A stretch of 33,776 nt of DNA from a virus. The first letter of the stretch is position 1; every line of letters begins with the position of its first letter. The notes under the pieces are model-generated. The model did not search any database and was not told where the DNA came from. It saw only the letters and a program-made list of their open reading frames with translations. A program made the position numbers and the translations under genes. Location: positions 1-33,776 of the IMG/VR virus record IMGVR_UViG_3300009160_000094; one strand, 5' to 3'. Shown piece after piece: positions 1 through 30,760 of the stretch.

Positions 1-632
1 ACTGTTGTGCCTCCAGCAACATTTCTATTGCTGGAAGTATTATCTGTTTGTATAAAATCGCACATTCTGTATGTGCTAAGACTTTGTATGGCTAATGTTT
101 GATTATTAGGAAAACTAGGAGGATTTGGCGGGACTAATTTACCTAAAATATAGTTCAATTGGGCTATTCCATTAGTCACTGTGCTTTGGTCTGTCATTCT
201 AACAGCCCTACTAACCAGTCTGCCAAGGCTTGGAGTTCCAACATTGACTCCCATAGCACTATTAAACTTGACTAATCCGCCGCTATTTGTGGCTAAATTT
301 AAATCATCACCAGAGGCTTTGGTAAAAATTGTGTTTTCTGTTATCGTAACCCCATCAGTACTAAAAACAGGTGCTTCTATTTCAGTTGTGGCTATGAGGT
401 TTTCAGAACCATTAGTGTCATCAATTAGTAATGTGTCAGACCAGTACCTTGTACCGTCTTTATCAGTTAATAAAAATCGTTTAGAATTGGCAGAGTCTGT
501 TGTGGAAGGTATACCTAAATCAGGTTCCGCTTCACTAAGCTTTAAAAATTCGTATCTTTCTTCACTGACCTTGTTTGGGCGGATCTTTTTAACTCTACCA
601 CTAAAGAGTTCCACCCTACCTTGCTTACCCAT
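1..632 (-). CDS. Fibre-like virion protein, 3' end cut by window start
   Basis: An open frame starts with ATG at 632 and runs without a stop through position 1, giving at least 210 residues with the C-terminus outside the window. A ribosome binding site (TAGGAG) sits a few bases upstream of the ATG. The N-terminus (RVELFSGRVKK, then ERYEFLKLSEAEPDL) closely matches that of the neighbouring 321-aa protein at 776-1741, so the two share an N-terminal module. The next stretch (FLLTDKDGTRYWSD, then a glycine- and threonine-rich part) resembles beta-structured phage fibre or appendage proteins. It is probably a structural protein of the tail or fibre apparatus; the exact role is unknown. A terminator-like hairpin and a second hairpin lie between it and the upstream gene, so it may be transcribed separately. 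Confidence 0.75.
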   Translation of the reverse strand, partial: MGKQGRVELFSGRVKKIRPNKVSEERYEFLKLSEAEPDLGIPSTTDSANSKRFLLTDKDGTRYWSDTLLIDDTNGSENLIATTEIEAPVFSTDGVTITENTIFTKASGDDLNLATNSGGLVKFNSAMGVNVGTPSLGRLVSRAVRMTDQSTVTNGIAQLNYILGKLVPPNPPSFPNNQTLAIQSLSTYRMCDFIQTDNTSSNRNVAGGTT

Positions 633-1785: not shown

Positions 1786-2124
1786 TTAATCGTTAGCTGA
1801 TTCTAGAATACTTAATGTAATTCTTAAAGAATTATTCCCGCTACCTTGAACTCTCAAGGTATCGCCTGATTCTAGAACCAACTTGCCTGCTACAACACTT
1901 ACGGCATCGCTATGAGGTATGTCAAATGAACTAACTAATTCATTTGAAACAACTCCTCTTACATGCCATGCTGTAATTGCTGCTGAACCACTACTAGTAA
2001 TATTAGCTACCTGTGTTCCTAGCACGATACCTGTAACCCCCGCAGGGGTTGTGTAGATATTGGTCGGGGTAGTAGTTACCGTTGCTGTTACAGTTTTAAA
2101 TGCGTTTAAAGGTACGTTTGCCAT
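1786..2124 (-). CDS. Small beta-rich virion protein (112 aa)
   Basis: A 112-residue protein with no cysteine and alternating polar and hydrophobic residues typical of a small beta sandwich. Its C-terminal half (KLVLESGDTLRVQ, then SLRITLSILE) aligns with the 105-aa protein at 22677-22994 (KIILDSGDSVQAK, then SISATLSYVR), so they look like diverged paralogues. An AAGGAAA ribosome binding site precedes ATG 2124. It sits 31 bases after the giant repeat protein and before the 321-aa fibre protein, with no promoter of its own visible, so it is probably co-transcribed with the giant gene. It could be a fibre cap, adaptor or head-decoration-like protein; the function is not known. Confidence 0.65.
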   Translation of the reverse strand: MANVPLNAFKTVTATVTTTPTNIYTTPAGVTGIVLGTQVANITSSGSAAITAWHVRGVVSNELVSSFDIPHSDAVSVVAGKLVLESGDTLRVQGSGNNSLRITLSILESAND

Positions 2125-2155: not shown

Positions 2156-5100
2156 TTACTCATTCAATGCTAGGATGTATGGTGTAATAACACCTAGCAA
2201 GCTCTTGTTAAATGCTCTACCAACAATCGAACCTGAGTCACGTTTAATTGTTAGTTCTGGACCAATCTTGAAGTCACCCTTCTGATCTGTACTAGTGAAG
2301 TTGATGAATCCACCGCGTTCACTAACAATCTCATTAGCCTCAATCGGTACTCCACCATTATATGGTAACGCACTATCAACGTCAATACCAGTTCCTACCC
2401 ACTCTAGTGTGTGACCAGTTGTTGTAATCTGGCTAACTTGGTGGAAAGTTGCATATGTATTATCATCAACACTTGACTTAAATGTAGCATCTAGTGTCAC
2501 TACACTGACATAACCGTTTGAAACGATATCAGTAAATGCATCGAACAATGATCCAACTGTGGTTACTTCACTATCTGTAGCAGCCACATTGTCTGTGTTC
2601 TGATCTACATAGATCTGCAACGGAGTTACATAATCATTCTTAACAATCTTTCTTGCCAATGTGTCTAGATAATTGAATCCAGCCGCAGTAGCATCTTTGC
2701 TGTCTGCTGGGATCTGCAATCTACCACCACTGAAATACTGCTCTGCTGCATACTTGGTTCTACTATTTCCACCGTAGATCAAGTCATAAGCCACAGCATC
2801 CAATGTTAAGCCAATGTCACGCTTACATGTATCTTGTAAGTATCCAAATCCTGAATACTCTTCATTAACATAAGTGATTGTGTCAGCTTGAATTGCTTCA
2901 AGATTATCTTGAATTAAATCGCGTAACAATACATACTTGGCTTCAGCATTGTCCAAACTTGGGGCAACTAGGGCAGGAGCACCAGCAAGACCTTTTTGTA
3001 ATGTTGTTACAATACCATGAACCAATGTTGCAGTTCTTGTTGCATTATCGTTAGTAGCTGCTGTATGAGTCTTGTCTTGAGTCTGACTGTTACCACTTAA
3101 CGGTGCAACAGTAGTATTCTTAACAATGTCATCAATGATACTTTCTAGATACTGCATACTTAGGATTGTTGGTCCTTTTGTTCCAAACGGAATGACTAGA
3201 CCACCTTTGTATGTGTACTGGATGCCAGCATCTCTAGTTTGAGTATTGCCACCGTAATACATGTCATAAGCCAATGCTTCAACAATATAACCAATATCGC
3301 GTCCGCACTTTTCTGGATTGTACACGAACCATTGTCCATCAAATGCATCTTTGACTGCCTTGTTTACACTGCCACTTGTAGTATTATTTGCAACAAGAGT
3401 AGCTCTAACTGCTTCTATTGCTGTATAATCAGCATCACCAGTATTGATAGTTGGTAAAACTCTTAAACTATTAGCAGTTGTATTAGCAGCACCTAAATTA
3501 GCTGAATCAATAATATTAGTTATACCATCAATTAGGTCAGTAACATCATCTTGAACTGTGCTACTACTTGCTCCACCAAATGTTCCTTTTGTAACAGAAA
3601 TTTGTTTTGGAGTAAATGCATTAAATGTTGTCTCACTTAAGATTAAAGCTCTAATCATATCCCTTAGATAAGCATATGCACCTAGTGTAGCAGTTGCTTC
3701 ACTTTGACCAGGTTCACCTAGTCCTAATGTTAATGTAGTGCCTTCCCAATATGCAAGACCAGCTTCTACAGTTTGACTGTTACCGCCATAGATCAAGTCA
3801 TAACGTAATGCTTCAAGGATATATGCAACATCACGCTCACATGCAATCTTGTCATAATCCAATTCTGGATAATTGATTGCAATCCAAGCACGAACTTCTG
3901 CTTTGATGAAAGCTGTATTATTAGCATTAGCAATAGTTTCAACAGCATTATCGTATGCAGCAGTACCATTTGTATCAAATGTTAATGCTGGAACAGCTAT
4001 TACACCACGATCTATGATGTCAATGATAGTATCCATCAATGAACGTACAGTAGTTGCCCCAGTTAATGACAAGTCAGTTAATGCTTTCTTCAAGAAGTAC
4101 AATGCACCAATAGTAGCTGCTTTTTGTTCGCCTGTTACTGTCTTACTATAACTTCTTAAATATGCCTGACCAGCTTTAACTGACTGGAAGTTAGATCCAA
4201 GTAATAAGTCATATTCAATTGCGTCTAGAATAATACCAACATCACGAGCACACTTAGTTGTGTCATAAACACCTCTTACAAACTCTCTGCTATTGATATA
4301 ATCAAGTACTTTATTTACACTAGCTTCTTTAGCTGCAAGTAATGTAGCTTTAGCAGAAGTAATAGTTGGGTTAGTACTTGTTACTGTTGGCTCAATAATT
4401 GTTGTTAATGCTGGAGTTGTTCCATCACCACCAACATAATTGATAATAATATCAATTAAAGCATTAGCCGCGGTAGTTTGTCCTGTAACATAACTAGCAA
4501 TTGTAGTCTTAAGTTGAGCGTAAGCAGCTAAAGTAGCTCCTTTCTCGCCAGTACCATTGCCCAATTGCGCTTGAGTACCTGCAAAATAACTACGAGCAGC
4601 AATAACAGTTGCTCTGTTTCCGCCATATGTTAAGTCATGTGTTAGTGCGTCAACAATATAACCAACATCGCGTAAACATGTAGCTTGTCTACCAGCTAAT
4701 GTTGCCCAACTAAATCCATTAGCTGTATAAGTGGACAAGTAAGTTCCAATAGCAGTTTTAATAGTTTCTTTATTAGTCTGCAATGTATTACTAGTTACTG
4801 CACCTGTAAGACCAGTTGACGGGAAACTTAATGTTGGAGCATTGCCACCGTCATTAATAATGTCAATGATAATACCTAGCTTAGATCTAATTCTGCTTAC
4901 AACAGTGCTACTAGTACTAACTAGGTTAGCTAATACACTCTTAGCATGAGTTAGAGCAGCTAAGATTGCAAACTTCTGCGGAGCAGCAACTGCACCTTGA
5001 GCATCAACTCTTGTGTAAGCAAGACCAGCTGTAACGCTTTGGGCATTACTGTCAGTGAAAGTGTCATAAATTACTGCGTCTAAGATGTATCCTAGGTCGC

Positions 5101-8100
5101 GTTCGCACTTGACAACATCATATAAGAAGTAAGCTCTTTCATTGATATACTTGGTGGTCTTTTTAGATATTGTAGACACAGCATTAACTATGTTATTTCT
5201 AGCAATTTCTAGGTCATTATCTGCACCAAGCAATTGTGGATACTGTACTGTTGGAAGAGCACTTAATCCGTTTGAAATTACATTTTTAATAATGTCAATT
5301 AATGTACCAACTTTTGTATCGTTAGTAACGTTAGTTAATTCTTGCTCAATAGTATTTCCACTAACCTCATCTCGAATTAAAGTTTTCAAGTATTCATAAG
5401 CAGCTAGAGTAGCAGTTTTCTCAGCAGTAACAACACCTAATGTTAACTCATTACTATTTCCTACATAGTAAGCACGAGCAGCAATAGTAGTTGCCCAGTT
5501 GCCACCATATGTTAAGTCATATGTAATTGCGTCAACAATATAACCAACGTCGCGTGTACATAAAGCTTTCTTAGGAGCACTTAATGCATTCCAGAACACA
5601 TTACTGTCATATCCGCCAGTTGGGTTGGCGAACCAATCTGTAATGTCACTTTGGATTGTACCTCTAACAAGACGAGTTAATTGTCCTTGAGCATTATATG
5701 CTGTAACATTACTTGGAGTGAAGTCCATTTCATCTATAGCAACACTTGCTGCAATATCACCATTGATAATACCAATGATTAGATCCATGCTAGCTTTAAC
5801 ACTATCAACAGCATCGATATTGTTGGCCACAATTGAAGCTAACAATTGCTTGACATACTTCAAGCTTTGAATTGTCATATGCTGCTCTTTACTGCCATCC
5901 AATACATTTTCAGCCGTATTACCTAAGTAGCGTAATCCAGCTATAGTACTTTGATAGTTACTACCTGTTACCATGTCATATGCGACAGCAGTTACAATGT
6001 AACCAACATCACGAGCACACTTTTCTTCATTATATCCAACAGTGTCATCCTGTTCTTTGAATGGATTGTACTCAGTGTTGATCTTAGCAAGTACTTGGTC
6101 AACAATGAAGTCCTTGTTGGCTAATAAAGTCTTTTTAACTTCGTCAGCATTATCTGATACTGGTGTACCACCCCAAGTAATAGCTGGTATGCTACCATCT
6201 GGACCCTTATCTAGGATCTGTAGGATAACATTCATGCCAGCTGCAATTCTTTCTTGAGCAATCTTATTAGTTGTTAGGGCTAATAATTCATTCTTTAACA
6301 AGTTAAATGCTGCTGTTGTAGCTAATTTTTGGGTAGTACCAAACACGCCATTACTTGCAATTAAACGAGCATAACTGCGTCCAGCAATTGTTGTACGGAA
6401 ATTGCTGTCAAACAACATGTCCCAACTAATCGCGTCAGTTACATAACCAACATCGCGAGCACACTTGACTGCGTCGTATGTCAATGCTGGGAAGTTAGTG
6501 GTTACATATGAAGTAACAGCAGTCTTAATTACTGCAATTTGATCTCTAAATGTAGCACTTACTTCTTTTAGATTTACATCTGCCCATGAAGCATCTGCGT
6601 AAACTTCTGTAACACTTGCATCATCATCAATCAAACTGTTGACGTTAGCAATCAATGCAGCAATTGTATCAGCTACACTTGCTGGGAAGTCTGAAATATC
6701 TGCAATCTTATCGCCTAATTCAGTGAATGCTGCCTTAGTAGCATTAACGTGATCAGTATGAGGAGAAGAACCAAGTACAGCTCCTTCATAATATGCACGA
6801 CCAGCAACAACTGTTTCCATATTGCCACCATAGGTCAAGTCATACTTGATTGCATCTAATACATAACCAATATCGCGTAAGCATGTATCTTTATTATAGC
6901 CAGAGAAACTATGTGAAATACCATCTAGATATGTACCCATCTGCGATAATAAAATATCTCTATTAGCATCAAGTAGGCTAATACCACTAGCAACTACTGC
7001 GTCATAACTATTTCTAGTTACTTCACCTAGCTCCAATGTGTCTAATAGAGTACGCATTGCACTTGTTACTCTGCGACCAGCTTCCTTGTTACCAGTTACA
7101 ATGGCTAACAACTTGCCTCTTAAGAATTCAAATGCTGCCATTGTGGCTGCCTTTTGCTCCTTAGTTGTGAAGTTACCACTTGTAACTTGACTACGTGAGT
7201 AGCTGCGACCAGCAACATAACTTCTAAACTCATTGTCAAACATCATATCATAACGTACTGCGTCAACAACATAACCAACATCGCGAGCGCATGTGTCTAC
7301 ATTATAATCCAATGCTGGGAATGTTGCAGTAACATAATCAGTTACTTGTTGCTGTAAGCTTGCTACTGTATCACCCATTGTTGTTGCAAATGATACAAAG
7401 TTACTGTTAACCCAACTTGTGTTAGGTAGTCTTGCAGCAGCATTATCACCTGTGCTAGTATTAATATATGTTACTAACTCATCAAACAATACTTTAGCAG
7501 CAGCAGCACCAGCAGCACTACCTGCAAGTCCAGTTGTGGATTGTGCTGGAATACTTCCGCCTGTATAAGGACCAGCAGCTAAGTTTTGAGCAATGTCTTC
7601 AATAATGCTACCAACAAAATTAAATGTATCAATAGTGTTAGTAATATGAGTTGAATCAGCTTCAGCTAATACTAGTCCATTGTAGTATGCACGTCCAGCT
7701 TCTACAGTTGCTAAGTTGCCACCGTATGTTAAGTCATAACGTACTGCATCTAAGAAGTAGTCAACATCGCGTAAGCATGTTGCTAAACTAAATCCTGTTG
7801 GATTAATACCTTCGTCGTCAATATACTCAGCAACTTGACCTTTGATGTAATCTCTGTTAGCTTCAATACGATCTCTAGCAGCTAGACGACCAATATCAAA
7901 ACTGTTTACAGTGCCACCATATGGAATTGATAGTGCTAATGCGCCGCTTCCAGCAAATGTTCTAACACGACCAGCTCCATTGTCTAGGATGTCAATGACT
8001 ACGTCCATACTTGCACCAACTCTTGCTAGAGCTGTTGCGTCAGATTTGACAATATCTTCTAGTGCAATCTTAACAATTCTAAAGCCTGCAACTGATGCAT

Positions 8101-11100
8101 CCTTCTGACCTAAACTTGTAAAGTCACCTTCAGTAACTTGTCTACGTAAGTAGCTGCGACCAGCAACGTTACTTCTAAAGTTACTGTTAAACATCATGTC
8201 CCAACGTACCGCGTCAATGACTAAACCAATGTCTCTTTGACATGTTGCAACGTCATAATCTAATGCTGGATAGTTAGCACTGATATAATCAGTTGTTGTC
8301 TTAGCCACAGTTGCTTTAGCAGCATTTAGCGCATCACTGAACACATATAACTTACTTGGGACCCACTTAATGTCAGCTGGAATTTCAACTGGATCTTGCG
8401 GAGCTGTGTCAATGTAGTTCATTACTAGTGTAACTAACGGAGCGACAAAATTAGTACTTACTGGTTCAGTAGAAGCTGGAGCAGTTTTATCTTGTGTAGT
8501 ACTATTTCCACTGGATCTAGTTACATCAATATTTTGAACTACTAGCTTGATAACGTCTCTTAAATGTCTGTAAGCATCTAATGTAGCAAGTTTTTCATTC
8601 TTACCTTCTAGAACTGTACCATTGTAATAAGCACGACCAGCAACTGATGTTTCCATATTGCCGCCATAGGTCAAGTCATAAACAATTGCATCTAAGATAA
8701 ATCCTAAATCTTCTCTACACTTAGTTTCGTCTGTTGCACCAACACCAGTAGTAAATGTAAATTCTGGGTAAGCATTAGTGTTGAAGTTGCCTCTGTTAGC
8801 TGTCTTCTCTTGAATAATGTAAGCAATTACTTCATTAATTAAGAAAGTTCTGTTAGCAACAATTCTAGCTTTGGCATTGGCAATAGCTGCAACGTGTGAA
8901 TTATCTGTGCCACCTGTTGGGGTTGGCAATGCACTTATCGCAGGAGGATCATCACCGCTAACGATATCTATAATAGTATCCATTAGACTTGTTAATCTAG
9001 CTTTGGCAGCTACTTCAATTGTACCAGCAGCACGAACATCAATTATATCAAATAATTTTGTTTTTAATGTGTTTAATGCAACTAATTCAGCAGTATTTTG
9101 ATCACCACCATCATAAACTTCTGATGCTACAAGACGCGTATAACTACGACCAGCTACAACACTACGGAAATTAGTATTAAATAACATGTCATAACGTACT
9201 GCATCAATGACTAACCCAATATCGCGAGCACACTTGGCTGAGTCAAACACTAAACTTGGATCACCAACACTTACTGCATCAACGATGTCAGTAATAATTG
9301 TGTCCTTGTCTGTTAGGAACTCACCATCTAATGTTAGGTAATCTGAATCTACCCAATCAATATATGGTGTAGTTGTTACTGGACTACTGTTGTAAGCAGC
9401 ATCAACTAAGTTTCTTACACCTAAAACCAATGCCTCAGCTTCTCTTGCAATGTCGGCTGGGATGCTAGCAGCTACTAGAAGATCAAGAACCTTTCTAGCC
9501 ATGAAAGTGTAAGCTTCTAATGTGGATTTAATTTCGTTGCCAATTAGTAAACTTTCGTTAGCTGCACCTGCATAGTATGCACGACCAGCAACCATTGTTT
9601 CCATGTTGCCACCGTAGGTCAAGTCATAGCACATTGCTTCTAAGATGTAACCAATGTCTTTTTCACATGAAGCCTTTCTATTAGTTCCAGCAGTAGTTGG
9701 GGTGGTATTTGTATTGTTTGAACTATCCCATGTACCATAATCAAATCCATCAAACGCTGGATTCTTACGACCAGCAAGTTCAGCAACAATAAATGCACTT
9801 ACTGCATTCTTAATAGCAGTTACGTTAGTGCTGTTCTTGAGATAATCAACTGCGTCAAAATATCCAATAGTACGGAAATCTCTTCCAGTTGCTCTTGGTA
9901 GTGCGTAAACACTGCCACCAGCTAGTGCAGTAACAAAAGTTGGCACTGTGCTTTCAGCAATAATACTCTTGATCAATTCAAAACTATCAGTAATGCTAGC
10001 GATTGCTGTTGCATCAGTTGTTAGTTCTAACACACGACTTAGTGCATAATCAATACCACCTAATGTTTCTCTTAGTTGATCGCTGATTACCAAGCTGCTG
10101 GTTGCTCTGCGATAAGCTGTACCTGCTTTGATACTGTTGTAGTTTGTACCTAATAGTAGGTCATTCAATGCAGCATCAATGATTAGGCCAACGTCGCGAG
10201 CACAACGGCTTTGATCATAAGTCTTGTAGTTAGCTGTGATATAAGCAGTAACTTCTTCTTTCAAGAACTCCTTGTTAGCAATCAAACTCTTAGCAGCGTT
10301 GATACTGTTTGGATTGAGAGCAGCACCTAGTGGTGGAACATTTACCACTGCTGGGGCTACTTCAACACCCTTGTCAACGATGTCATATAGAATGTCAAAT
10401 CTATTTTCGATTTCACTGATAATATATGGATTTGTTACTAGTGGAGGTGTTTGACTTACTGCAACGCACTTTTCTTTAATAAAGTTAATTGCTTCTAACT
10501 GTGGCCCTAACTGGTAACTTGTAACTACACCAGCTGCTTTCTGTAAGTATACACTGCCTGCTGTGATAGTTTGGAAGTTGCTGTTTAGAACTAGGTCATA
10601 CATGACACAGTCAATGATTAAGCCAACGTCGCGAGCACACTTTTCTGTGTTATATTGTAAAATATAGCTGTCAAGATAATCAGCAATACGAGCCTGTAAA
10701 CTCTTCTTCTGTTCTTGCAAGCTTAATCTTACATAAGCCAATGTTTCATCACCAGCTAAGAACTCTGGCTCAATTGGCTCTGGAAGCTGTTTCACACCGC
10801 CTTTAACAACATTAATAACAATGTCAGTTAGTCCAGCTAGTTTAGCAGCAACTTGTTCGCTAGCACCAATACCACGAACTTGTGGCACTGCTAGTTGGAA
10901 TGACTCAACTGGTGTATTACGGGATACTTCAAATAAAACTGTACCTAAGTAATTGTAAGCTCTTTCTGTAGCTGTTACTTCATCTGCACCAAGTACAGCA
11001 CCTTCATAATAAGCTGTGCCTGCATTAACAGTTTCAGTGTTACCACCATATGTTAGATCGTAGTAAATGGCATCTAGGATGCTATCTAAATCTTCCAAAC

Positions 11101-14100
11101 ACTGAGTGCGATTGTACGCAAACACTGTAAATCCGCTAGTATCACGTCTGTTTTGCTCATCAATCCAAGCAATTACTTCTGCTTTAATAAACTCACGGTT
11201 ATTCTCAATAGCAGTTCTAGCAGCCAATGTATTTCTATCATAAGCATTTAGAGGTGTGTTTAGAGAATTAGCACCTGTTGGAGTTGGAATTGAATATGGC
11301 TTAGCTGGAACATCTTTAACTAAAATATATGTTAATCCAGTTGGTGTGCCAGCAGTGGTTGTAATTGCACTGCCGCCCTTTGTAGCTGACAATGTAAAGT
11401 TAGTAGGGCCACTAGTAGAAATAACGTAGTATGTATTTCCAGTAGCATACCCAGTAATGGAGCCACCGCCACCATATGTACCTGTAATAACAACTTTTGC
11501 TCCTACTTCCACATATGCCTCTGATGCACAGGAGAATTGGCCACCAGTGCCAGTAATAGCAACTGTTCTTAAAGGAACACCAACATTAGTAATGAACAAG
11601 TCCATTAAGGTATTAATTCTAGCTAAAGTTGTTGTGTCACCACCATTACCACTACCAGCAGTGCCATTAGTATTAATAGCAGTCTTGCTTGTTGATTTTG
11701 CTCTATTATTAAGTGTTATTAACTCAGCCTTTAGTTGCTTGAAAGCTGCTATTGTAGCTTGTCTCTGAACACCAGTCACAGCATTTGTCACATTGCGACT
11801 GTAAGCTTGAGCAGCAATAATTGTCTTAAAGTTTGTATCAAAAGCAATGTCAAAACGTAGTGCATCCAACAATAAAGCAGTGTCGCGAGCACACTTATCT
11901 GTGTCAAAATAGCTAACTCTTAATGTACCTGCTCCTGGAGTGATTGTTGCGGCAGTTAGCTCTGCATTTGTTGTACGATCACTTCTCTCACTTACTGTGA
12001 AAGTATTGGATGTTGGGATTGTTTTTACATAATATGTAGTACCAAACTTAATGCTGCCAACATCTGCACCTGCTGTAAATTGAATTGCTTGTCCAACAGT
12101 GAATGTATGATCATTTGTTACAGTAATTGTAGCAACACCGCCGCCACCTACAGCAATTCCAGTTACTGTGTTACCATTGTTAGTGATAGCATATTCTGTA
12201 ACAATCTGTGGGAAACTCTTAGGTCTTCTAACTGTGTCAACTACTGAAGCAACTAAATTAGGTGTTTTATATTTGCCCAATAATTCTGCAAAATCAGACA
12301 AGTTAGTACCTGCCCATGCTGTATCTGGATACACAGTGCTTGGATTAGCAGCAATAGTACTGATATAATCTCTAACTGTCCATGCTAGATTTCTACTAGC
12401 TTGAGCAGCACTTACACCAGCTTGTGGACCAAATACTTGTGGAACCTTAACTTGAAGCTTACTTACATCCTCATTCTTAGCAATCTTTGCTACTAGAGAC
12501 TGTAAGTATGTATAAGCAGTTACGGTAATTGCTAACTGTCCACTTGGGAGTGAATCGTTATCAAGTCCGGCACCAGCATAATATGCTAACGCAGCAACAC
12601 TAGTTTCCATTGTGCCACCGTAAGTCATATCATAACGTAGTGCGTCAATGATATAATCAACGTCGCGTAAACATACTGCATTATTATAATCTAAAGATGG
12701 GGACTCAACAGTGATTTTCTTGGTCAATTCTGCTTTGATAAACGCTCTGTTAGCATCAATTAAGTTTCTTGCATATCCATAACTTGGTAGATAATCTGTA
12801 TTATAGCCAGTTGGGCTTGGTAGTTTAACTTCTGGAAGTTGATCTAATCCACCTTTTAGTACTGCCAATACAATATCCATACACTCAGCTACACGAGATC
12901 TAGCTGTTTCACTAGTTGTTGTGTATGTTAATAGTGTAGTTCTTAGTAACTCAAATGAGCCAATTGTAGCATCTTTTTGTAGTCCTACTACTAGAGCAGC
13001 CTGTGCGCGATAATAGCTACGAGCAGCAACAATTGTTCTAAAGTTACTACCAAACATCATATCATAACGTACTGCGTCAACAACTAAACCAATGTCGCGT
13101 TCGCATGAAATAACATTATAATCAAATATTGTTAGACCACTAACGCTAGCGTTTGTTGTTAAGTTAACAGCAGAACCACCTTTCTCAGTACTTACTTGGA
13201 AGCCATTAGTTGTAAGATAAGTTCCACCTAATACATAATAAACAGTATCAGCAGTTAGGCCTGTACCTGTTGTAGTACCTTTAAGTACTATAATTTGATC
13301 TTCAACTAAACCATGTCTATTAGCAGTAATTATATCATTAGTTGTGTTGGTTGCGGTTACCTGTGTTTGAGCACTGTAATTTGCAGCAATATAATCTGTA
13401 ACAGCAGTCTTAATATCAGTTTTTTCAGCTTCAATAGCATCACTGATAGTTACTAACTCACTGTCAAGAACATTAACCCAATCTGTGCTAGCTGCAACTG
13501 GAGTTGGATTTGTTCCACCTAGTGCTGTTAAAATAACACCAATTAGATCATTAGCTTTAGTGCCAGCTGCACTTGAACCTTTACTGCTTGATGTTGTGCT
13601 TTGTTTAACTGTATTATTAGCGATGATTTCTAAAATCTTAGCTTTGGTAAAATCAATTGCTGCTAGTGTGGCTTCTTTTTGGTTATTAGTTGTAAAGCCA
13701 CCTTCTGTAACTTGAGTTCTAGCATAACTACGACCAGCTACAGTACTTCTAAAGTTTGTACCAAACATTAAGTCATAACGTACAGCATCAATAATTAGGC
13801 CAATATCTCTTCGGCATGTATTTACTACGTAATTGCCTACTAAGTCTGGATAATTAGCATTAATAAAATCTGTAACTTGTTTTTGGATACCAACCCCTAA
13901 ACTTACACCGTTAAGTGTATTAGAAGAATTTGCATTATTAACAGCATCTAGAATATCACTGATTTCTACAAGACCGCTATCAACCCATGCTGTTCCAGCT
14001 GGAACTTCAGTATCATCATTATCACCATCATCAAGATTGACAAAAGTAATAATAGTATCAATTAAATCACCAGCAGCATTAGCAGCACCTGAACTTCCTG

Positions 14101-17100
14101 CTTGAGCATTAGTACCTGAACTAAAGACTTGAGCAACATTATTACCAGTTGTTGCTGTAACCTCATTATTTTGAGCAACATCAACAATGGCTGCTTTTAG
14201 TCGAGTATAAGCAGCAATAGTTGCAGCAATTTCGTCATCTCTATTTCCAGTTGGATCATCACTAAACACAAGACCATCATAGTATGCACGTCCAGCAACA
14301 ATAGTTTCCATATTGCCACCGTAAGTCATGTCATAATATACAGCATCTAGGATATAATCAACATCACGTTTACATGTTTCCTGATTGTAAACTGGCGGAC
14401 TATTAGCTTCAATGTAAGCGATAACTTCAGCTTTTAAGAATTCTCTGTTAGCTGCAATTAAGTTTCTTGCATTTAGATATGCATCAACACTGGCATTGCC
14501 AGCACCACTTGTTGGAAGTGGTAAAGCAAATGGACGCTTTGGAGCAACTGCTTCTCCATTATCTAAAATACTCTTAATTAAGTCCATGTTAGCAGTTGCT
14601 CTTTCTGTAGCTAAGAACTTCTTGCTACTTGGGGTAACTGCTTTTAATCGAACTACATCTTGTAGTACTTCGCTTAGTCTTTCATAAGCAGCTACAGTTT
14701 GAATAACCTGCTTAGGAATAACTGACTTAGGAGTAATTGCACCATCAAAATAACTTTGTGCTGCTGATAATGTATCAAGGTTACCGCCATATAATACGTC
14801 ATAGCACATTGCGTCAATTAAGAAACCAACGTCACGAGCGCATTTGGCTCTGTTATAGGCATAACGACTGTCAACAAAATCAGTTATTGCATCACCAAGA
14901 TCAGTTTTGTTATTAGTTAAACTTAGATTCAATGTAACTAATGCGTTAGCAACCCAATTTGTTGTAGGAAGAACTGTTGCGTCAGGTCCTGAATCAGGAT
15001 TAATATCGCCTGCAATAATATCAGAAATACGATTAGCCAACAATGCTACTCTAGCGCTAACAGTAGCATCAGCAATTAAAGTATCTAACTCTGTAGCCAA
15101 TTGTCCATAAGCAGCAATAGTAATATCCAAGTCATTTGATACTAGTACTGAAGCCCCTGTAACACCACTCTTATAAGCCTTAGCAGCGATATCAACTTGA
15201 GTTGTTCCGCCGTATGTTAAATCATAACAAATTGCATCAATGATGAATCTTAAATCTCTTTGGCAATTAGCTCTTTGAGCAGGGCCATATGTGAAACCAG
15301 GATAGCCACTGCCCTGCTGTTGAATAACCCAAGAATTAATTGTTTTAACAAGAGTTTCTTTACTAGTTTGAATTGTGTCTCTTGCTGCTAAGAATGTAGA
15401 AATACCAGCTGTTCCAGTTGTACCAGTTGTTGGAGGAGTCCATTTAACTGTTGGAGCAGCAGTTAGGCCGTTTTCTAAAATAGCTAAAATAGCATCCATA
15501 CTAGCAGTTACTCTAGTTGTGGCTGTTTCGTTGGTCTTGACTAAATCTAATAACTTGGTCTTTAAGAATTCAAATGAAGCCATTGTGGCAACTTTCTGAT
15601 CTTTTGTTACTACACTAGCTTGAGCACGATAATAACTACGACCTGCAACAATACTGTTGAAGTTAGTATCAAACATCATGTCATAACGTACTGCGTCAAC
15701 TACAAGACCTACGTCACGAGCACATACATCTCTGTCATATCCAAAAATTACATAGTTTGTATCAATGTAATCAGTGATTTCTTTCTTCAATGATACTGTG
15801 GCTGTTTGTAATTTCTTAAACTCAGCTACTAATTTTGCATCAACCCATGCTAGATCTGGAGTAGATGTTAAGTTTTCAATATCAAGTGCGCCGTTATCAG
15901 CACTAGAATTATCAATATAGCTAAGAATTAATTGGATTAAATCAGACATATCGCTGGATGCTGCGGCACTGCCGTCACTGCCAGTTGGACTTCTAAACTG
16001 AACTGTACTATTACCAGTTGTTCTAGTTACTGGTGTATCAACTGCCACATCCGAAATAACTGATTTCAAATGTGTATAAGCAGCAATAGTAGCAGCAACT
16101 TCATCATCATTTTGTCCAGTTGGATCTAGCTGTTTAATTGCACCAACAAAATAGCTGAATGCTGCTGTTTGAGTTTCCAATGTACCACCATAAGTAGTAT
16201 CATAATATACAGCATCTAAAATTAAGTTTAGATCACGTTCACACTTGGCTTGATCGTAACCAACTGGTACATCATTTTGATCAATGTAAGCCAAGATTTC
16301 ACTGATAATAAATCCTCTATTCTTTTCAACTAGATCTCTAGCTCTCTTATAGCCAACATCACGACCTGTTTCTGGGAAAGGAATAATGAATTTTGGCACA
16401 TTCATTCCATCGCTTTCTACGATGTCAATGATGATATCCATATTTCTATTTGTGCTGTTAACTGCTAAACTGTTTTGTTTTAGTAATTCAGCAACTAGTT
16501 TCTTAAGTTGTTTGAATCCACCAACAGTTGCTAATTTTTGACCACTTGCAACTTTAGCAGCATTGACTCTCATGTAACTACGACCAGCAGTGATACTACG
16601 GAAGTTACTGCCAAACATTAAGTCATATCCTAATGCTTCAATAATAATACCAACGTCACGAGCACACTTTTCTCTATCATATGACAATACAGTAAAGTTA
16701 CTATCAATATAATCAACAACTTCTTCTTTGATAAAAGCAATATTATCTCTTAGAATTTTAACAGCAGTGTCTCTGTCAATATCATCATCACTGTTTCTTT
16801 TTGGAATTGGATATTCCAATGAAGGAGCTGCAGGATTGTCAACGGTGCCATCTTTAAGAATATCAATTAAAATATCAAATCTTGTACTAATTGCTTTCTT
16901 AGCTGCTGGAGTAACAACACGCTCTAATGTTAATACTTTAGCAGCTTCTAATGCAGCAATAGTTTGAACCTTCTGTGGTCCAATTACGTCACTAGCGTAA
17001 GCACGGAAATAACTGATAGCAGCATTAATTGTCTTATAGTTGCTATCAAAGATCATGTCACTTAGAATAGCATCTAAAATTAAGCCAACGTCTCTGTAGC

Positions 17101-20100
17101 ACTTTGGCTTATTAAAGCTGAAGTTATCAAAGAAGTTATTAGCCATGAACTTGATAGTTTCTGTTGTAATATCTTCTTTAGCAGCTAGGATTGCATCTCT
17201 TACAGCCTTAACAGCAGTTGGCTGATAAGTTGTTATTGGATACCCAGTTGTTGTTGTTCCTAGTGATAATGGAGTAGCTGTACTTACACGAGCAAATGTG
17301 TTATCACCATCACTGATTTCATACCAGTTGATGTTAATATAAGCTTGTAATTCAGCTTGAATAAATTGCTTGTTAGCAACTAGCAAGTCAAATGCCTTTT
17401 GTTTATTAGGATCTGTACTTGCTGTTAGTCCAATAGCTTGTTTAGTTCTTTGAATGGAATCCTCACTGTTGTTAGGACCTTCACGTAGAATTTCAACAAT
17501 CACATCAATTAAATTATTAATTGCATATGACTCGGCAATTGTAGCAGGTGGTAGACTGGTTCTCTGCTCAACATCACCTTGCCATGGATTTGGTCTTGGT
17601 GTACAAGTAATAACATCAGCTAATAGCTCTTTTAAGTAGAGGTAAGCATTGATTGTTTGATTAATCTGTCTTGGACTTACTGTCTTTAGCACGTTGGATT
17701 CATCGTTAAATCCATAGTAGTAAATACCTGCTTGAACAGCTTGACGATTACCACCGTGTACTAAGTCAAAACATACACTATCAACAATGTAACCAATGTC
17801 ACGAGCACACTTTACTCTGTCATAGTTAAATGCAGGATATGATCTTGTTAGATAAGCAATGACTTCAGCTTTTAAGAAGTTCTTGTTAGCTTGTAATAGT
17901 TTGTAGCCATTATCTAAATCTGTGTCAGTTGATCTAGCACCATTTGACTGAATAAAATCACTAGTTCCAACGATTTCTGAATCAATCTGTTTTAGGAATA
18001 TCTTGAATAAATTACCTAAGTTATTAACTTGAGTTTGAGTTGTTGCAGTACCGTTAAGATTTTGACTACCTGAATATCCTTCAATAGGATCATTAATTAC
18101 AACACGTTGACTGTACAACTGGGCAATACCATATGCATCTGTTGTAGCAACACGCTCATAATTAGCAATTTGTCTTGAACCATTAGCATAGCTATAATAT
18201 CTCTTAGCTGCATCTATTGTTTCACTATTACCGCCGTAGGTCAAGTCAAAGCACATTGCATCAAGAACATATCCTACATCTCTTTTACATATATTTTCAT
18301 CATAATTTCCAATTAAATCTGGATAATTTTCATTAACTTTAGCAATAACAATTTGTTTAACAAGTGTCTTATTAGCTTGTAAGTTTATAACTAAATTCTT
18401 AACAGTTACATCTGTATCTTGATAATCAGGATATTGTGGGGCTGTTGTTACTGCGCCAGCGTCAATTGAGCTAGTAATTAACTCAAAATTTCCTGTGACA
18501 CTGTCTACTGCATCAGTATTTTCAGTTATTAAAGCAATTACTTTATCACGAGCAAATTTAACAGCTTCAATTGTTTCTGTTTTTGTACCTGAAGGAATTA
18601 CTAATCCACTGGCGCTTATATATGATCTAGCAGCCTTGATACTTAAATAATTACCGCCAAAAATCATATCGTTAATTACAGCATCAATGATAATGCCAAC
18701 ATCTCTAAAACACTTGGATTCAGAATACTGAAGAGTTGGATAAGTTGATCTAATAAAAGCAATAGTTTGATCTTGAATTTCTTGCTTTTTGCTTAATACT
18801 TGTTCTCTTAAACGTTTAAGTTCTGGTTCAGCCAAGTCATAATCTGGAAGAATAATTGTTTTTGGACTTAATGGCCCGTTCTCTACGATTCCACTGACAA
18901 TGGCAAACCCGTCACGTACTAATCTTTGTGCTGTTACAGAACCGCCATCAGTTGCACCAGCAGCAACTTTGCCTACTTGATTTTCAGTATTACCTGATGT
19001 TTTAGTAACTGCTACGTCACGAGTAATTAAACCAGCAACATATTTGGCATGATCTAATGCTGCGACTGTTTCTGGACCTTGATCACCAATTGTGATTTCG
19101 CCTTTGGCCCAATAACGTAGGCCAGCAAATGTACTTTGTGTAGTACCTTCGTATAATAAATCTTGAGCTAAACTATCAACAATTAGACCATTGTCTCTAT
19201 TACATGTAACTTGATTATAGTTGGCAAATAATACGCCGTCACCAATGTTTGGACGCTTGGCTAAATTCTTAAATACAATTTGACGTCCTGCTGACTTCTT
19301 AACAACACCACGATATAAAATTTCACTAGCACCACGACTTACTAGACCGTAGTTACCAAATGAGCTGTTACTTAGGTTGATCGAGCAAAATCCACCGTTT
19401 TCACATAAGAATGAAATATCGCAGCAAATTGTAAAGATGGAAACTAACTGTGTGTTTCCTCTGTTCAACATGTGAATACCAATACCACCTTGGTTGTACT
19501 GTGTAAACGCATCAGCAACCATTGAACGTAGGCCAGTAGTTACAGCACCGTCAACACGCATACCTGTACCAGTTGTTGTGATACTGGTTACCGCTTGAGT
19601 ATAAGGGGAAGTTACAATTTCACCAGCACTACCGTCTGGTGGGAAACAGACCGCAGCTGAAGGAGCAATGTGTCCTTTGAAATTCATACAGAAAATATAC
19701 GCACCGTTGTAAACCCAGAAAATATCTTGTGTTGGGTTTTTTGGACGAACTGTGGTGTTACGCAAGTTGTCGCCAACAACTGATACACGAGCAGGAACTC
19801 TTAGTGGGTTATCTTCAATATACTCCCCACTCTTTAAAAATATGGTCGTGCCAGGTGTCGCAACACTCAGAGCCTTTTTTAGGCTTGCAAAACTCTCCCC
19901 CAATGTTTTACCGCTATTGCTGTCATCGCCGCTTTTACTAACATAAAGTACGTTAGGTACTGATGTTGCGCCGATTTCAACAATCTTTTGTATAGCTGAA
20001 AACCCTGCAGGTTGTTTAATTTCTTGTTTAGTAAATAGTTTACCGTCAGCACTGTTAATTGCTAACTCACCTAATTCTAATGCCTCTAGTGATGGTACTT

Positions 20101-20143
20101 TTCCTGGTATATCACTGCGTTTAAATCTAATATTAGTGCTCAT
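2156..20143 (-). CDS. Giant 5,995-aa repeat protein, fibre-type ends
   Basis: One uninterrupted frame of 17,988 bp. Residues 1-40 (IRFKRSDIPGKVP, then LELGELAINSADGKLF) match the N-terminal domain of many phage fibre proteins. Residues about 66-310 (VLYVSKSGDDSNSGKT, then GTTIFLKSGEYIE) look like a right-handed beta-helix of the pectin-lyase type. From Cys314 to Cys5773 there are 34 copies of a mostly helical unit with signature C-x-[RKE]-D-x10-D, then A-[AG]-x-x-Y; the median Cys-to-Cys spacing is about 153 residues. Three beta-type domains are inserted in mid-array. The last ~110 residues, ending GRAFNKSLLGVITPYILALNE minus its final residue, resemble the C-terminus of T4-like marine phage fibre proteins. 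It starts at ATG 20143 with AAAGGGAAA upstream. It is probably a very long virion fibre or adhesin; an enzymatic role is not indicated. Confidence 0.85.
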   Translation of the reverse strand: MSTNIRFKRSDIPGKVPSLEALELGELAINSADGKLFTKQEIKQPAGFSAIQKIVEIGATSVPNVLYVSKSGDDSNSGKTLGESFASLKKALSVATPGTTIFLKSGEYIEDNPLRVPARVSVVGDNLRNTTVRPKNPTQDIFWVYNGAYIFCMNFKGHIAPSAAVCFPPDGSAGEIVTSPYTQAVTSITTTGTGMRVDGAVTTGLRSMVADAFTQYNQGGIGIHMLNRGNTQLVSIFTICCDISFLCENGGFCSINLSNSSFGNYGLVSRGASEILYRGVVKKSAGRQIVFKNLAKRPNIGDGVLFANYNQVTCNRDNGLIVDSLAQDLLYEGTTQSTFAGLRYWAKGEITIGDQGPETVAALDHAKYVAGLITRDVAVTKTSGNTENQVGKVAAGATDGGSVTAQRLVRDGFAIVSGIVENGPLSPKTIILPDYDLAEPELKRLREQVLSKKQEIQDQTIAFIRSTYPTLQYSESKCFRDVGIIIDAVINDMIFGGNYLSIKAARSYISASGLVIPSGTKTETIEAVKFARDKVIALITENTDAVDSVTGNFELITSSIDAGAVTTAPQYPDYQDTDVTVKNLVINLQANKTLVKQIVIAKVNENYPDLIGNYDENICKRDVGYVLDAMCFDLTYGGNSETIDAAKRYYSYANGSRQIANYERVATTDAYGIAQLYSQRVVINDPIEGYSGSQNLNGTATTQTQVNNLGNLFKIFLKQIDSEIVGTSDFIQSNGARSTDTDLDNGYKLLQANKNFLKAEVIAYLTRSYPAFNYDRVKCARDIGYIVDSVCFDLVHGGNRQAVQAGIYYYGFNDESNVLKTVSPRQINQTINAYLYLKELLADVITCTPRPNPWQGDVEQRTSLPPATIAESYAINNLIDVIVEILREGPNNSEDSIQRTKQAIGLTASTDPNKQKAFDLLVANKQFIQAELQAYININWYEISDGDNTFARVSTATPLSLGTTTTGYPITTYQPTAVKAVRDAILAAKEDITTETIKFMANNFFDNFSFNKPKCYRDVGLILDAILSDMIFDSNYKTINAAISYFRAYASDVIGPQKVQTIAALEAAKVLTLERVVTPAAKKAISTRFDILIDILKDGTVDNPAAPSLEYPIPKRNSDDDIDRDTAVKILRDNIAFIKEEVVDYIDSNFTVLSYDREKCARDVGIIIEALGYDLMFGSNFRSITAGRSYMRVNAAKVASGQKLATVGGFKQLKKLVAELLKQNSLAVNSTNRNMDIIIDIVESDGMNVPKFIIPFPETGRDVGYKRARDLVEKNRGFIISEILAYIDQNDVPVGYDQAKCERDLNLILDAVYYDTTYGGTLETQTAAFSYFVGAIKQLDPTGQNDDEVAATIAAYTHLKSVISDVAVDTPVTRTTGNSTVQFRSPTGSDGSAAASSDMSDLIQLILSYIDNSSADNGALDIENLTSTPDLAWVDAKLVAEFKKLQTATVSLKKEITDYIDTNYVIFGYDRDVCARDVGLVVDAVRYDMMFDTNFNSIVAGRSYYRAQASVVTKDQKVATMASFEFLKTKLLDLVKTNETATTRVTASMDAILAILENGLTAAPTVKWTPPTTGTTGTAGISTFLAARDTIQTSKETLVKTINSWVIQQQGSGYPGFTYGPAQRANCQRDLRFIIDAICYDLTYGGTTQVDIAAKAYKSGVTGASVLVSNDLDITIAAYGQLATELDTLIADATVSARVALLANRISDIIAGDINPDSGPDATVLPTTNWVANALVTLNLSLTNNKTDLGDAITDFVDSRYAYNRAKCARDVGFLIDAMCYDVLYGGNLDTLSAAQSYFDGAITPKSVIPKQVIQTVAAYERLSEVLQDVVRLKAVTPSSKKFLATERATANMDLIKSILDNGEAVAPKRPFALPLPTSGAGNASVDAYLNARNLIAANREFLKAEVIAYIEANSPPVYNQETCKRDVDYILDAVYYDMTYGGNMETIVAGRAYYDGLVFSDDPTGNRDDEIAATIAAYTRLKAAIVDVAQNNEVTATTGNNVAQVFSSGTNAQAGSSGAANAAGDLIDTIITFVNLDDGDNDDTEVPAGTAWVDSGLVEISDILDAVNNANSSNTLNGVSLGVGIQKQVTDFINANYPDLVGNYVVNTCRRDIGLIIDAVRYDLMFGTNFRSTVAGRSYARTQVTEGGFTTNNQKEATLAAIDFTKAKILEIIANNTVKQSTTSSSKGSSAAGTKANDLIGVILTALGGTNPTPVAASTDWVNVLDSELVTISDAIEAEKTDIKTAVTDYIAANYSAQTQVTATNTTNDIITANRHGLVEDQIIVLKGTTTGTGLTADTVYYVLGGTYLTTNGFQVSTEKGGSAVNLTTNASVSGLTIFDYNVISCERDIGLVVDAVRYDMMFGSNFRTIVAARSYYRAQAALVVGLQKDATIGSFELLRTTLLTYTTTSETARSRVAECMDIVLAVLKGGLDQLPEVKLPSPTGYNTDYLPSYGYARNLIDANRAFIKAELTKKITVESPSLDYNNAVCLRDVDYIIDALRYDMTYGGTMETSVAALAYYAGAGLDNDSLPSGQLAITVTAYTYLQSLVAKIAKNEDVSKLQVKVPQVFGPQAGVSAAQASRNLAWTVRDYISTIAANPSTVYPDTAWAGTNLSDFAELLGKYKTPNLVASVVDTVRRPKSFPQIVTEYAITNNGNTVTGIAVGGGGVATITVTNDHTFTVGQAIQFTAGADVGSIKFGTTYYVKTIPTSNTFTVSERSDRTTNAELTAATITPGAGTLRVSYFDTDKCARDTALLLDALRFDIAFDTNFKTIIAAQAYSRNVTNAVTGVQRQATIAAFKQLKAELITLNNRAKSTSKTAINTNGTAGSGNGGDTTTLARINTLMDLFITNVGVPLRTVAITGTGGQFSCASEAYVEVGAKVVITGTYGGGGSITGYATGNTYYVISTSGPTNFTLSATKGGSAITTTAGTPTGLTYILVKDVPAKPYSIPTPTGANSLNTPLNAYDRNTLAARTAIENNREFIKAEVIAWIDEQNRRDTSGFTVFAYNRTQCLEDLDSILDAIYYDLTYGGNTETVNAGTAYYEGAVLGADEVTATERAYNYLGTVLFEVSRNTPVESFQLAVPQVRGIGASEQVAAKLAGLTDIVINVVKGGVKQLPEPIEPEFLAGDETLAYVRLSLQEQKKSLQARIADYLDSYILQYNTEKCARDVGLIIDCVMYDLVLNSNFQTITAGSVYLQKAAGVVTSYQLGPQLEAINFIKEKCVAVSQTPPLVTNPYIISEIENRFDILYDIVDKGVEVAPAVVNVPPLGAALNPNSINAAKSLIANKEFLKEEVTAYITANYKTYDQSRCARDVGLIIDAALNDLLLGTNYNSIKAGTAYRRATSSLVISDQLRETLGGIDYALSRVLELTTDATAIASITDSFELIKSIIAESTVPTFVTALAGGSVYALPRATGRDFRTIGYFDAVDYLKNSTNVTAIKNAVSAFIVAELAGRKNPAFDGFDYGTWDSSNNTNTTPTTAGTNRKASCEKDIGYILEAMCYDLTYGGNMETMVAGRAYYAGAANESLLIGNEIKSTLEAYTFMARKVLDLLVAASIPADIAREAEALVLGVRNLVDAAYNSSPVTTTPYIDWVDSDYLTLDGEFLTDKDTIITDIVDAVSVGDPSLVFDSAKCARDIGLVIDAVRYDMLFNTNFRSVVAGRSYTRLVASEVYDGGDQNTAELVALNTLKTKLFDIIDVRAAGTIEVAAKARLTSLMDTIIDIVSGDDPPAISALPTPTGGTDNSHVAAIANAKARIVANRTFLINEVIAYIIQEKTANRGNFNTNAYPEFTFTTGVGATDETKCREDLGFILDAIVYDLTYGGNMETSVAGRAYYNGTVLEGKNEKLATLDAYRHLRDVIKLVVQNIDVTRSSGNSTTQDKTAPASTEPVSTNFVAPLVTLVMNYIDTAPQDPVEIPADIKWVPSKLYVFSDALNAAKATVAKTTTDYISANYPALDYDVATCQRDIGLVIDAVRWDMMFNSNFRSNVAGRSYLRRQVTEGDFTSLGQKDASVAGFRIVKIALEDIVKSDATALARVGASMDVVIDILDNGAGRVRTFAGSGALALSIPYGGTVNSFDIGRLAARDRIEANRDYIKGQVAEYIDDEGINPTGFSLATCLRDVDYFLDAVRYDLTYGGNLATVEAGRAYYNGLVLAEADSTHITNTIDTFNFVGSIIEDIAQNLAAGPYTGGSIPAQSTTGLAGSAAGAAAAKVLFDELVTYINTSTGDNAAARLPNTSWVNSNFVSFATTMGDTVASLQQQVTDYVTATFPALDYNVDTCARDVGYVVDAVRYDMMFDNEFRSYVAGRSYSRSQVTSGNFTTKEQKAATMAAFEFLRGKLLAIVTGNKEAGRRVTSAMRTLLDTLELGEVTRNSYDAVVASGISLLDANRDILLSQMGTYLDGISHSFSGYNKDTCLRDIGYVLDAIKYDLTYGGNMETVVAGRAYYEGAVLGSSPHTDHVNATKAAFTELGDKIADISDFPASVADTIAALIANVNSLIDDDASVTEVYADASWADVNLKEVSATFRDQIAVIKTAVTSYVTTNFPALTYDAVKCARDVGYVTDAISWDMLFDSNFRTTIAGRSYARLIASNGVFGTTQKLATTAAFNLLKNELLALTTNKIAQERIAAGMNVILQILDKGPDGSIPAITWGGTPVSDNADEVKKTLLANKDFIVDQVLAKINTEYNPFKEQDDTVGYNEEKCARDVGYIVTAVAYDMVTGSNYQSTIAGLRYLGNTAENVLDGSKEQHMTIQSLKYVKQLLASIVANNIDAVDSVKASMDLIIGIINGDIAASVAIDEMDFTPSNVTAYNAQGQLTRLVRGTIQSDITDWFANPTGGYDSNVFWNALSAPKKALCTRDVGYIVDAITYDLTYGGNWATTIAARAYYVGNSNELTLGVVTAEKTATLAAYEYLKTLIRDEVSGNTIEQELTNVTNDTKVGTLIDIIKNVISNGLSALPTVQYPQLLGADNDLEIARNNIVNAVSTISKKTTKYINERAYFLYDVVKCERDLGYILDAVIYDTFTDSNAQSVTAGLAYTRVDAQGAVAAPQKFAILAALTHAKSVLANLVSTSSTVVSRIRSKLGIIIDIINDGGNAPTLSFPSTGLTGAVTSNTLQTNKETIKTAIGTYLSTYTANGFSWATLAGRQATCLRDVGYIVDALTHDLTYGGNRATVIAARSYFAGTQAQLGNGTGEKGATLAAYAQLKTTIASYVTGQTTAANALIDIIINYVGGDGTTPALTTIIEPTVTSTNPTITSAKATLLAAKEASVNKVLDYINSREFVRGVYDTTKCARDVGIILDAIEYDLLLGSNFQSVKAGQAYLRSYSKTVTGEQKAATIGALYFLKKALTDLSLTGATTVRSLMDTIIDIIDRGVIAVPALTFDTNGTAAYDNAVETIANANNTAFIKAEVRAWIAINYPELDYDKIACERDVAYILEALRYDLIYGGNSQTVEAGLAYWEGTTLTLGLGEPGQSEATATLGAYAYLRDMIRALILSETTFNAFTPKQISVTKGTFGGASSSTVQDDVTDLIDGITNIIDSANLGAANTTANSLRVLPTINTGDADYTAIEAVRATLVANNTTSGSVNKAVKDAFDGQWFVYNPEKCGRDIGYIVEALAYDMYYGGNTQTRDAGIQYTYKGGLVIPFGTKGPTILSMQYLESIIDDIVKNTTVAPLSGNSQTQDKTHTAATNDNATRTATLVHGIVTTLQKGLAGAPALVAPSLDNAEAKYVLLRDLIQDNLEAIQADTITYVNEEYSGFGYLQDTCKRDIGLTLDAVAYDLIYGGNSRTKYAAEQYFSGGRLQIPADSKDATAAGFNYLDTLARKIVKNDYVTPLQIYVDQNTDNVAATDSEVTTVGSLFDAFTDIVSNGYVSVVTLDATFKSSVDDNTYATFHQVSQITTTGHTLEWVGTGIDVDSALPYNGGVPIEANEIVSERGGFINFTSTDQKGDFKIGPELTIKRDSGSIVGRAFNKSLLGVITPYILALNE
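11310..11575 (-). other. Inserted beta-type domain 3 in giant protein
   Basis: Between repeat signatures 15 and 16 the protein carries an extra segment rich in G, T, V and S with the phrase GNTYYVISTSGPTNFTLSA followed by KGGSA. This pattern (x-TYYV, then FTLS, then GG) is common in phage fibre and tail proteins. It explains the long 264-residue signature spacing here. Confidence 0.6.
11910..12200 (-). other. Inserted beta-type domain 2 in giant protein
   Basis: Between signatures 14 and 15 a segment with VTNDHTFTVGQAIQFTAG, then GTTYYVKTIPTSNTFTVSE, has the same plan as the other two inserts. The signature spacing is 260 residues here. Confidence 0.6.
13125..13375 (-). other. Inserted beta-type domain 1 in giant protein
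   Basis: Between signatures 12 and 13 a segment with ITANRHGLVEDQIIVLKGT, then ADTVYYVLGG, then FQVSTEKGGSAV matches the plan of the other two inserts. The signature spacing is 237 residues here. Confidence 0.6.
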
Positions 20144-29291: not shown

Positions 29292-29879
29292 TTAACGTAT
29301 TTTTTCCCAGCTGGACATTATGTCCCTAAAATCATTAAAAAATAGTCGTTTATAATTATCATAACGCCAAGGTGGATCAAAAAAAGTCTCCACATTGACT
29401 CTATAATATTTTACTGTGCTGTTGTCTTTTATTATTTTTTCAGTTTGTCTAAGCCAATTACCATGGTAGGTAGCTGGGTCTGAACTCTTTTTATAATTGT
29501 TTGTGTTGGCATAGACATTATTGATTTTGCCTTTGAGACCTTCATAATCAAAACCAAAAATATAGACCTCATCAGGTCTATGACTAGTAGCTAGATTTAA
29601 TGCTGTTGGGCCACTGCTCCAACCTAAATTAGGTTCAAAGTAATTAAATTTTTCGTAATTTTTGTAATTAGGGATATAATTAGTCCATACTTGATTAGTC
29701 AATTGATACTTACTTTCATTTATTTCATTGACCATCTTACTGTCCACAGCCACAAGATAATCTGGACTAAAATCTCTGTAAACTGCATTACAGGCGTAGA
29801 TTAGTCCATATGGCTTAACTTCATCAAATCCCATGTTAAGTCGTGTTCGACCATTGCCAAACACGAAACTTCTTTTCAT
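29292..29879 (-). CDS. DUF115/sialyltransferase-like protein (195 aa)
   Basis: The N-terminus (FVFGNGRTR, residues 7-13 region) is a glycine-rich loop, followed by YACN (28-31) and PDYLVAVD (39-46). Then come SGPTALNLA (89-97) and EVYIFGFDY (104-112). This order is that of DUF115 and sialyltransferase-like proteins that bind nucleotide sugars. The C-terminal part has YHGNWLRQTEKI and FFDPPWRY. The start ATG overlaps the stop of the upstream methyltransferase (ATGA), so the pair is translated together. It may glycosylate a virion protein or a host surface sugar (inference). It is nested inside the head operon, an unusual place for a sugar enzyme in T4. Confidence 0.6.
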   Translation of the reverse strand: MKRSFVFGNGRTRLNMGFDEVKPYGLIYACNAVYRDFSPDYLVAVDSKMVNEINESKYQLTNQVWTNYIPNYKNYEKFNYFEPNLGWSSGPTALNLATSHRPDEVYIFGFDYEGLKGKINNVYANTNNYKKSSDPATYHGNWLRQTEKIIKDNSTVKYYRVNVETFFDPPWRYDNYKRLFFNDFRDIMSSWEKIR

Positions 29880-30752: not shown

Positions 30753-30760
30753 TATTTATT
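30753..30760 (-). promoter_or_regulatory. Late promoter, predicted leaderless start
   Basis: The minus strand reads AATAAATA, then GATAT, then ATG. The arrangement is identical in spacing to that before the glycosyltransferase at 25247. The octamer overlaps the TAA stop of the portal gene. Confidence 0.6.

Follow-up and report, generated by a model that had tools for sequence, protein, structure and literature searches.

The question raised by this locus is what kind of structure a phage builds with a fibre-module protein of 5,995 residues, most of it a repeat, and what that repeat is. The gene lies in a window of 33,776 bp, the whole stretch of DNA analysed, which is an entire linear virus record and a genome fragment. 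A sequence-only reading had described a single intact 18-kb gene, and this is what we found, the frame starting with ATG and having no internal stops. We give a probability of about 0.6 to the reading that it encodes a biliprotein tail fibre, composed of an anchor, a beta-helix, a shaft of 34 phycobiliprotein-type units and a C-terminal domain, and loaded with bilin (Table 1).

Table 1. Features of the window that bear on the giant fibre-type gene and its surroundings.
Feature	Position	Strand	Basis or remark
Fibre-type gene, cut by window end, downstream	3..632	-	
Fibre/structural gene downstream, 321 aa	776..1741	-	
Partner gene, 112 aa, phrog_1276	1786..2124	-	follows giant fibre gene
Giant fibre-type gene, 5,995 aa, one intact frame	2156..20143	-	equal length in independent contig G001, 1 aa differs
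C-terminal domain, residues 5879-5995 (...TPYILALNE) and stop	2156..2509	-	conserved end domain of fibre family
34 phycobiliprotein-like units, residues 307-5878	2510..19225	-	own-repeat profile and CXRD motif
Unit 31 (type A)	3986..4354	-	Phycobilisome PF00502, 23.2 bits vs curated cut-off 22.2, profile positions 49-153 of 155
Right-handed beta-helix domain, about residues 64-306	19226..19954	-	Pfam DUF1565; AF2 model of compact orthologue L035
N-terminal anchor, residues 1-60, shared with cyanophage fibres	19964..20143	-	phrog_17885 / long-tail-fibre PHROGs
Fibre/structural gene upstream, 578 aa, 55-aa beta-type tandem repeats	20221..21957	-	
Major capsid protein	25322..26500	-	89% identical to that of 400-kb relative; nearest jumbo T4-like phages
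Portal protein	30759..32495	-	

An assembly artefact joining several genes could be ruled out, because independent contigs preserve the frame, the number of units (34, and once 36) and the order of the unit types A and B, with arrays just 51-63% identical to that of the window. Intact frames of 6,204-6,904 aa are present in G002, G003, G006, G007, G009 and G011, and G004 has the frame length and unit pattern of G003. The earlier claim that the protein is among the largest of phages has to be tempered, since longer proteins of this kind exist, among relatives with up to 6,904 aa and in cyanophage ACG-2014d as a structural protein of about 6,820 aa with 4 units (KJ019127.1 45306-65759, L374). 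Orthologues that share the end domains but are shorter carry 2, 4, 6, 8, 10 or 22 units, and PSSM2_293 of P-SSM2, from the same fibre family, has 617 aa and none. The counts are even throughout (2, 4, 6, 8, 10, 22, 34, 36), and we do not rely on strict evenness, since unit 1 of the giant proteins was inserted separately and the 22 units of G012 depend on the threshold (21 at a stricter one). This first unit (type B, 18857-19237) is inserted at the end of the beta-helix and is missing from the compact orthologues. A second fibre-type frame of G007 has 4,122 aa and five units (L160, G007:350000-369000).

The two ends of the protein place it in a fibre family, as the fibre-type N- and C-terminal domains of the sequence-only reading had implied; matches to phrog_17885, that of the C-terminal domain of 117 residues among them, and homology to PSSM2_293 bear this out. 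The beta-helix that had been predicted is supported by a Pfam DUF1565 match at residues 71-127 (E 2.6e-5) and by the AF2 model of the compact orthologue, which is beta-rich in this region. The model of the C-terminal domain was poor (pLDDT <50), a PDB search with the N-terminus as a single sequence returned no matches, and T4_baseplate and other Pfam families gave weak matches to the giant protein, under the cut-off.

A profile made from the protein's own repeats returned exactly 34 units, each scoring 47.9-144 bits, the same number as counted before. Sequence, profile and structure comparisons each name phycobiliproteins independently, and on this agreement we identify the fold. AF2 modelling of four consecutive units (22-25, ABAB; 6644..8338, minus strand) gave an all-alpha structure with five to six helices per domain (pLDDT 74.9, pTM 0.58), corroborating the helical character already proposed for the unit. 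Foldseek matched this model in the PDB to phycocyanin, allophycocyanin, the ApcE bilin domain and smURFP with probabilities of 0.95-1.00 and TM up to 0.65, the E value of about 0.4 (0.38) for this four-unit, multi-domain query being not significant alone. For a compact orthologue with only two units, the AF2 model matched phycoerythrin (7f86; E 2.3e-4, probability 1.00, TM 0.60) and many other phycobiliproteins, with TM 0.60-0.72 across matches. A comparison of the repeat profile with known domains, a check that the sequence-only reading had proposed, also led to phycobiliproteins: against all PDB chains the unit profile found chiefly phycocyanin alpha chains (best E 0.0044), the same alignment placing the CxRD of the unit on phycocyanin Cys84-x-Arg86-Asp87, and hhalign against a CpcA profile of 35 sequences gave a score of 40 and E 1.6e-6 (4e-7 for the window units alone), these E values being those of single comparisons. 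Null controls in hhalign scored at most 15.7 for 20 column-shuffled profiles, 8 for a reversed one and 10-11 for heme oxygenase and reductase. Scanned unit by unit with Pfam, 6 of the 34 gave Phycobilisome (best E 5.6e-5) and no other family appeared in more than one unit; the Phycobilisome cut-off was passed in 5 of 26 phages. Unit 31 as a single sequence found no match in the PDB. The strongest Phycobilisome match seen, above the cut-off, is a stretch of the 4,122-aa frame of G007 (E 7.3e-8). The unit very probably has the fold of a phycobiliprotein or bilin-binding globin domain, judging from these sequence and model comparisons. What we rank as the important part of the analysis, namely the unit's fold, its CXRD motif and the connection to bilin genes, was absent from the sequence-only reading.

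The array itself is kept on a fixed plan. Its order in the window, BABBAABABBBAABABAABABABABAABABABBB, is found together with 34 units in six of seven giant lineages, the window counted among them, and the 36 units of the G002 lineage correspond to the common order with exactly one additional AB pair. A fast-shuffling array was ruled out by the position-specific orthology of many units and by this same order in six lineages. The dN/dS of the array is 0.31-0.34 between the window and the giant orthologues and 0.24-0.27 between the other giant lineages; in the giant orthologues, identity to the window is 89-94% for the N-terminal region and 82-98% for the C-terminal domain. The shaft diverges under purifying selection on its fixed plan and both ends are strongly conserved, an unusual pattern for fibres that bind their receptor by the tip; the array surface may contact varying partners, or assembly may fix both ends. 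Two long linkers (13157-13588 and 11969-12361, residues 2186-2329 and 2595-2725) contain inserts that differ among relatives and look beta-rich by eye.

Which phage carries such a protein could be read from the genes further upstream of the fibre genes, which include those for the major capsid protein, protease and portal. Jumbo T4-like phages of proteobacteria have capsid proteins with 67-72% identity to that of the window, the nearest being Sinorhizobium Phosso, Vibrio 2.275.O and CBB/GAP32, and a cyanophage origin of the window is unsupported, the capsid being closest to these jumbo phages. The window is moreover collinear with G007 (399,796 bp), with portal 85% and protease 91% identical, so G007 can stand in for the remaining genome. 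The T4-like phage of the sequence-only reading is refined by these two comparisons to a jumbo T4-like one. The phrog_1276 partner lies downstream of this fibre gene in the 400-kb relative too, and in five of five cyanophages used for comparison. As to the remaining neighbours, the flanking fibre genes at 20221-21957 and 776-1741 end alike (IDCGEY and VIDCGSF), the 55-aa repeat of the former is a 165-bp tandem repeat, and between portal and protease there are a methyltransferase-like gene (RMNT_CmcI, E 1e-5; 29876-30478) and a weak sialyltransferase-family match (29292-29879).

Do the units carry a bilin? Their sequences suggest that they probably bind one. We consider it most likely that a heme oxygenase of the phage would break down host heme to biliverdin, which a PcyA/PcyX-like reductase, also of the phage, would reduce, and that the reduced bilin would attach to the conserved Cys of the CXRD of each unit, either by self-loading, as in the BBAGs, or in cyanophages via the CpeT lyase, the outcome being a pigmented fibre loaded with bilin. 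Alternatively, the fold could have been recruited purely as a stackable shaft module, with CXRD serving the folding of a bilin-free domain and the bilin genes serving host physiology or iron release, which we consider rather unlikely. Such uses would agree with the ideas, host light reactions and iron supply among them, offered in a 2024 study that left the purpose of phage hemO/pcyX to speculation (PMC11480375). What argues against a purely structural module is the motif: C-x-x-D is present in all 34 units of the window and the exact CXRD in 31 (the other three have CLED, CEKD and CRED), and across 330 divergent phage-fibre units this triad, which contacts the ligand in phycobiliproteins, falls within the six best-conserved columns (C 98.2%, D 98.8%, R 87.9%). 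In the literature, CXRD is described for phycobiliproteins and for BBAG-1/-3 globins, and BBAGs load bilin without a lyase (PMC10151467).

The distribution of the bilin genes bears on both readings. The window fragment (33,776 bp) has no bilin genes. Each of the five contigs that have units and exceed 300 kb (G007, G014, G015, G016 and G020) encodes a heme oxygenase and a bilin reductase close to each other, as direct neighbours in four of them and with two desaturase-like genes between them in G014 (L198:9403-10925); in these five they share the genome with the fibre, yet are not adjacent to its gene. The reductase is a ferredoxin-dependent bilin reductase whose closest NCBIfam model is PcyA, under the equivalog cut-off, and genes named by eye from sequence as Hsp20-like and ClpS-like stand beside the pair in four of the five. 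Further contigs picked by fibre or units have the reductase in G043 (251 kb) and G044 (208 kb), and no reductase was found in G017 (270 kb), which has units, nor in G023 (219 kb). When contigs were picked by reductase similarity alone, units were present in nine of nine of at least 128 kb, two shorter ones having none, and six related isolates (Phosso, Vibrio 2.275.O, CBB, GAP32, Atu_ph07 and PA5oct) have neither units nor reductase; this co-occurrence (9/9 versus 0/6) gives p = 2e-4, uncorrected for shared ancestry. Among contigs picked by capsid, mostly short fragments, five of 114-210 kb have units and none the reductase, a survey that is uninformative on the reductase because these contigs are fragments.

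In cyanophages the comparison was made with the CpeT bilin lyase. Of 21 genomes, 11 encode CpeT, and their unit counts are 2-13, against 0-4 in the other 10 (Mann-Whitney p = 1.6e-4, uncorrected for shared ancestry); where the CpeT match is full-length, its gene is found within a few kb of a giant fibre ORF with units in nine of nine (S-PM2, S-RIM32, S-RSM4, S-H9-1, ACG-2014i, S-WAM2, ACG-2014h, S-CAM3 and Sf-CH11). Since the cyanobacterial T-type lyases are known for Cys153 and not Cys84 (PMC10452541), an action of CpeT at CXRD is something that we infer. A bilin-free module would be compatible with the exceptions, namely units without reductase or CpeT (3-4 units in ACG-2014d, DSL-LC03 and S-B43, and those of G017), reductase yet no units (P-SSM2 and S-PRM1), and CpeT, which was looked for in the jumbo phages and not found. 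Against it, units are accompanied by bilin genes or by a bilin lyase in each of two distinct groups of phages, and in all nine cyanophages named above CpeT is close to the fibre gene.

Could the protein act inside the cell instead, as a biliprotein or a heme/bilin sink during infection and no virion fibre? Soluble biliproteins do have the fold of the unit, but the fibre-family ends, the head and tail gene surroundings, the conserved 112-aa partner and a virion-tagged relative make this very unlikely. That relative is gp026 of S-SCSM1, which has two units and belongs to the fibre family, and whose record bears the tag 'virion protein'; the S-SCSM1 paper reports 45 proteins by mass spectrometry from CsCl-purified virions (PMC9602691), from which the tag was presumably derived. 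By its sequence relationships and its gene neighbourhood the giant protein is likely to be present in the virion as a fibre, and in this respect our results support the earlier proposal of a fibre-module virion protein of great length, its helical repeat set between fibre-type ends. The sequence-only reading, taken as that of an alpha-helical fibre or adhesin with an unknown fold and no particular ligand, was correct on helicity and fibre ends and is now highly improbable, the unknown fold being contradicted by the sequence, profile and structure comparisons.

As to what a bilin-loaded fibre would use its bilin for, we tentatively put maturation or stability of the domain first and photoprotection second, these two together being the most likely; some other role comes slightly after, and light-dependent adsorption, which is possible, last. 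Bilin genes occur also in phages thought to infect non-photosynthetic bacteria, for reasons that are an open question (PMC11480375), and a candidate acceptor encoded in the same phage genomes makes the purpose of these genes testable. If true, a pigment-carrying virion fibre would answer why phages make bilins. We see about even chances that phages make bilins to load their own virion, with pigmented and possibly light-responsive fibres of tens of phycobiliprotein-type domains as a new class of structure. The sequences of the family are already public; in the open-access literature searched, we found no description of phycobiliprotein-type domains in phage fibres, nor of a biliprotein-domain virion fibre as a kind of object.

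The earlier statement that no characterised system has this architecture needs qualifying, given that the unit fold is recognisable, the ends belong to a known cyanophage fibre family and short arrays exist in many sequenced cyanophages. With phycobiliproteins (PF00502: phycocyanin, phycoerythrin, allophycocyanin, the ApcE bilin domain and smURFP) the units share the globin-like all-alpha fold and the position of CXRD; they differ in being 34 covalently joined copies in a phage fibre, at about 15-20% identity, with a putative bilin and no alpha/beta subunit partner identified. The BBAGs, likened here by description, are non-photosynthetic phycobiliprotein paralogues with CXRD in BBAG-1/-3 and with heme oxygenase and a PcyA-like reductase alongside (PMC10151467), but they are self-loading cellular globins of bacterial gene clusters, whereas the phage units form tandem arrays in a fibre gene. 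The PSSM2_293 fibre family (T4-GC 288, phrog_17885) shares the N-terminal region (43% over 1-285) and the C-terminal domain (39% over 115 aa), and PSSM2_293, like the giant gene, precedes a 112-aa phrog_1276 partner; the difference lies in the shaft, with 0 units against 34. Finally, the hemO-pcyX/pcyA cassettes of phages in aquatic metagenomes (PMC11480375) likewise place a heme oxygenase gene next to one for a PcyA/PcyX-like reductase, and the same kind of genome is seen here to encode candidate bilin acceptors as well.
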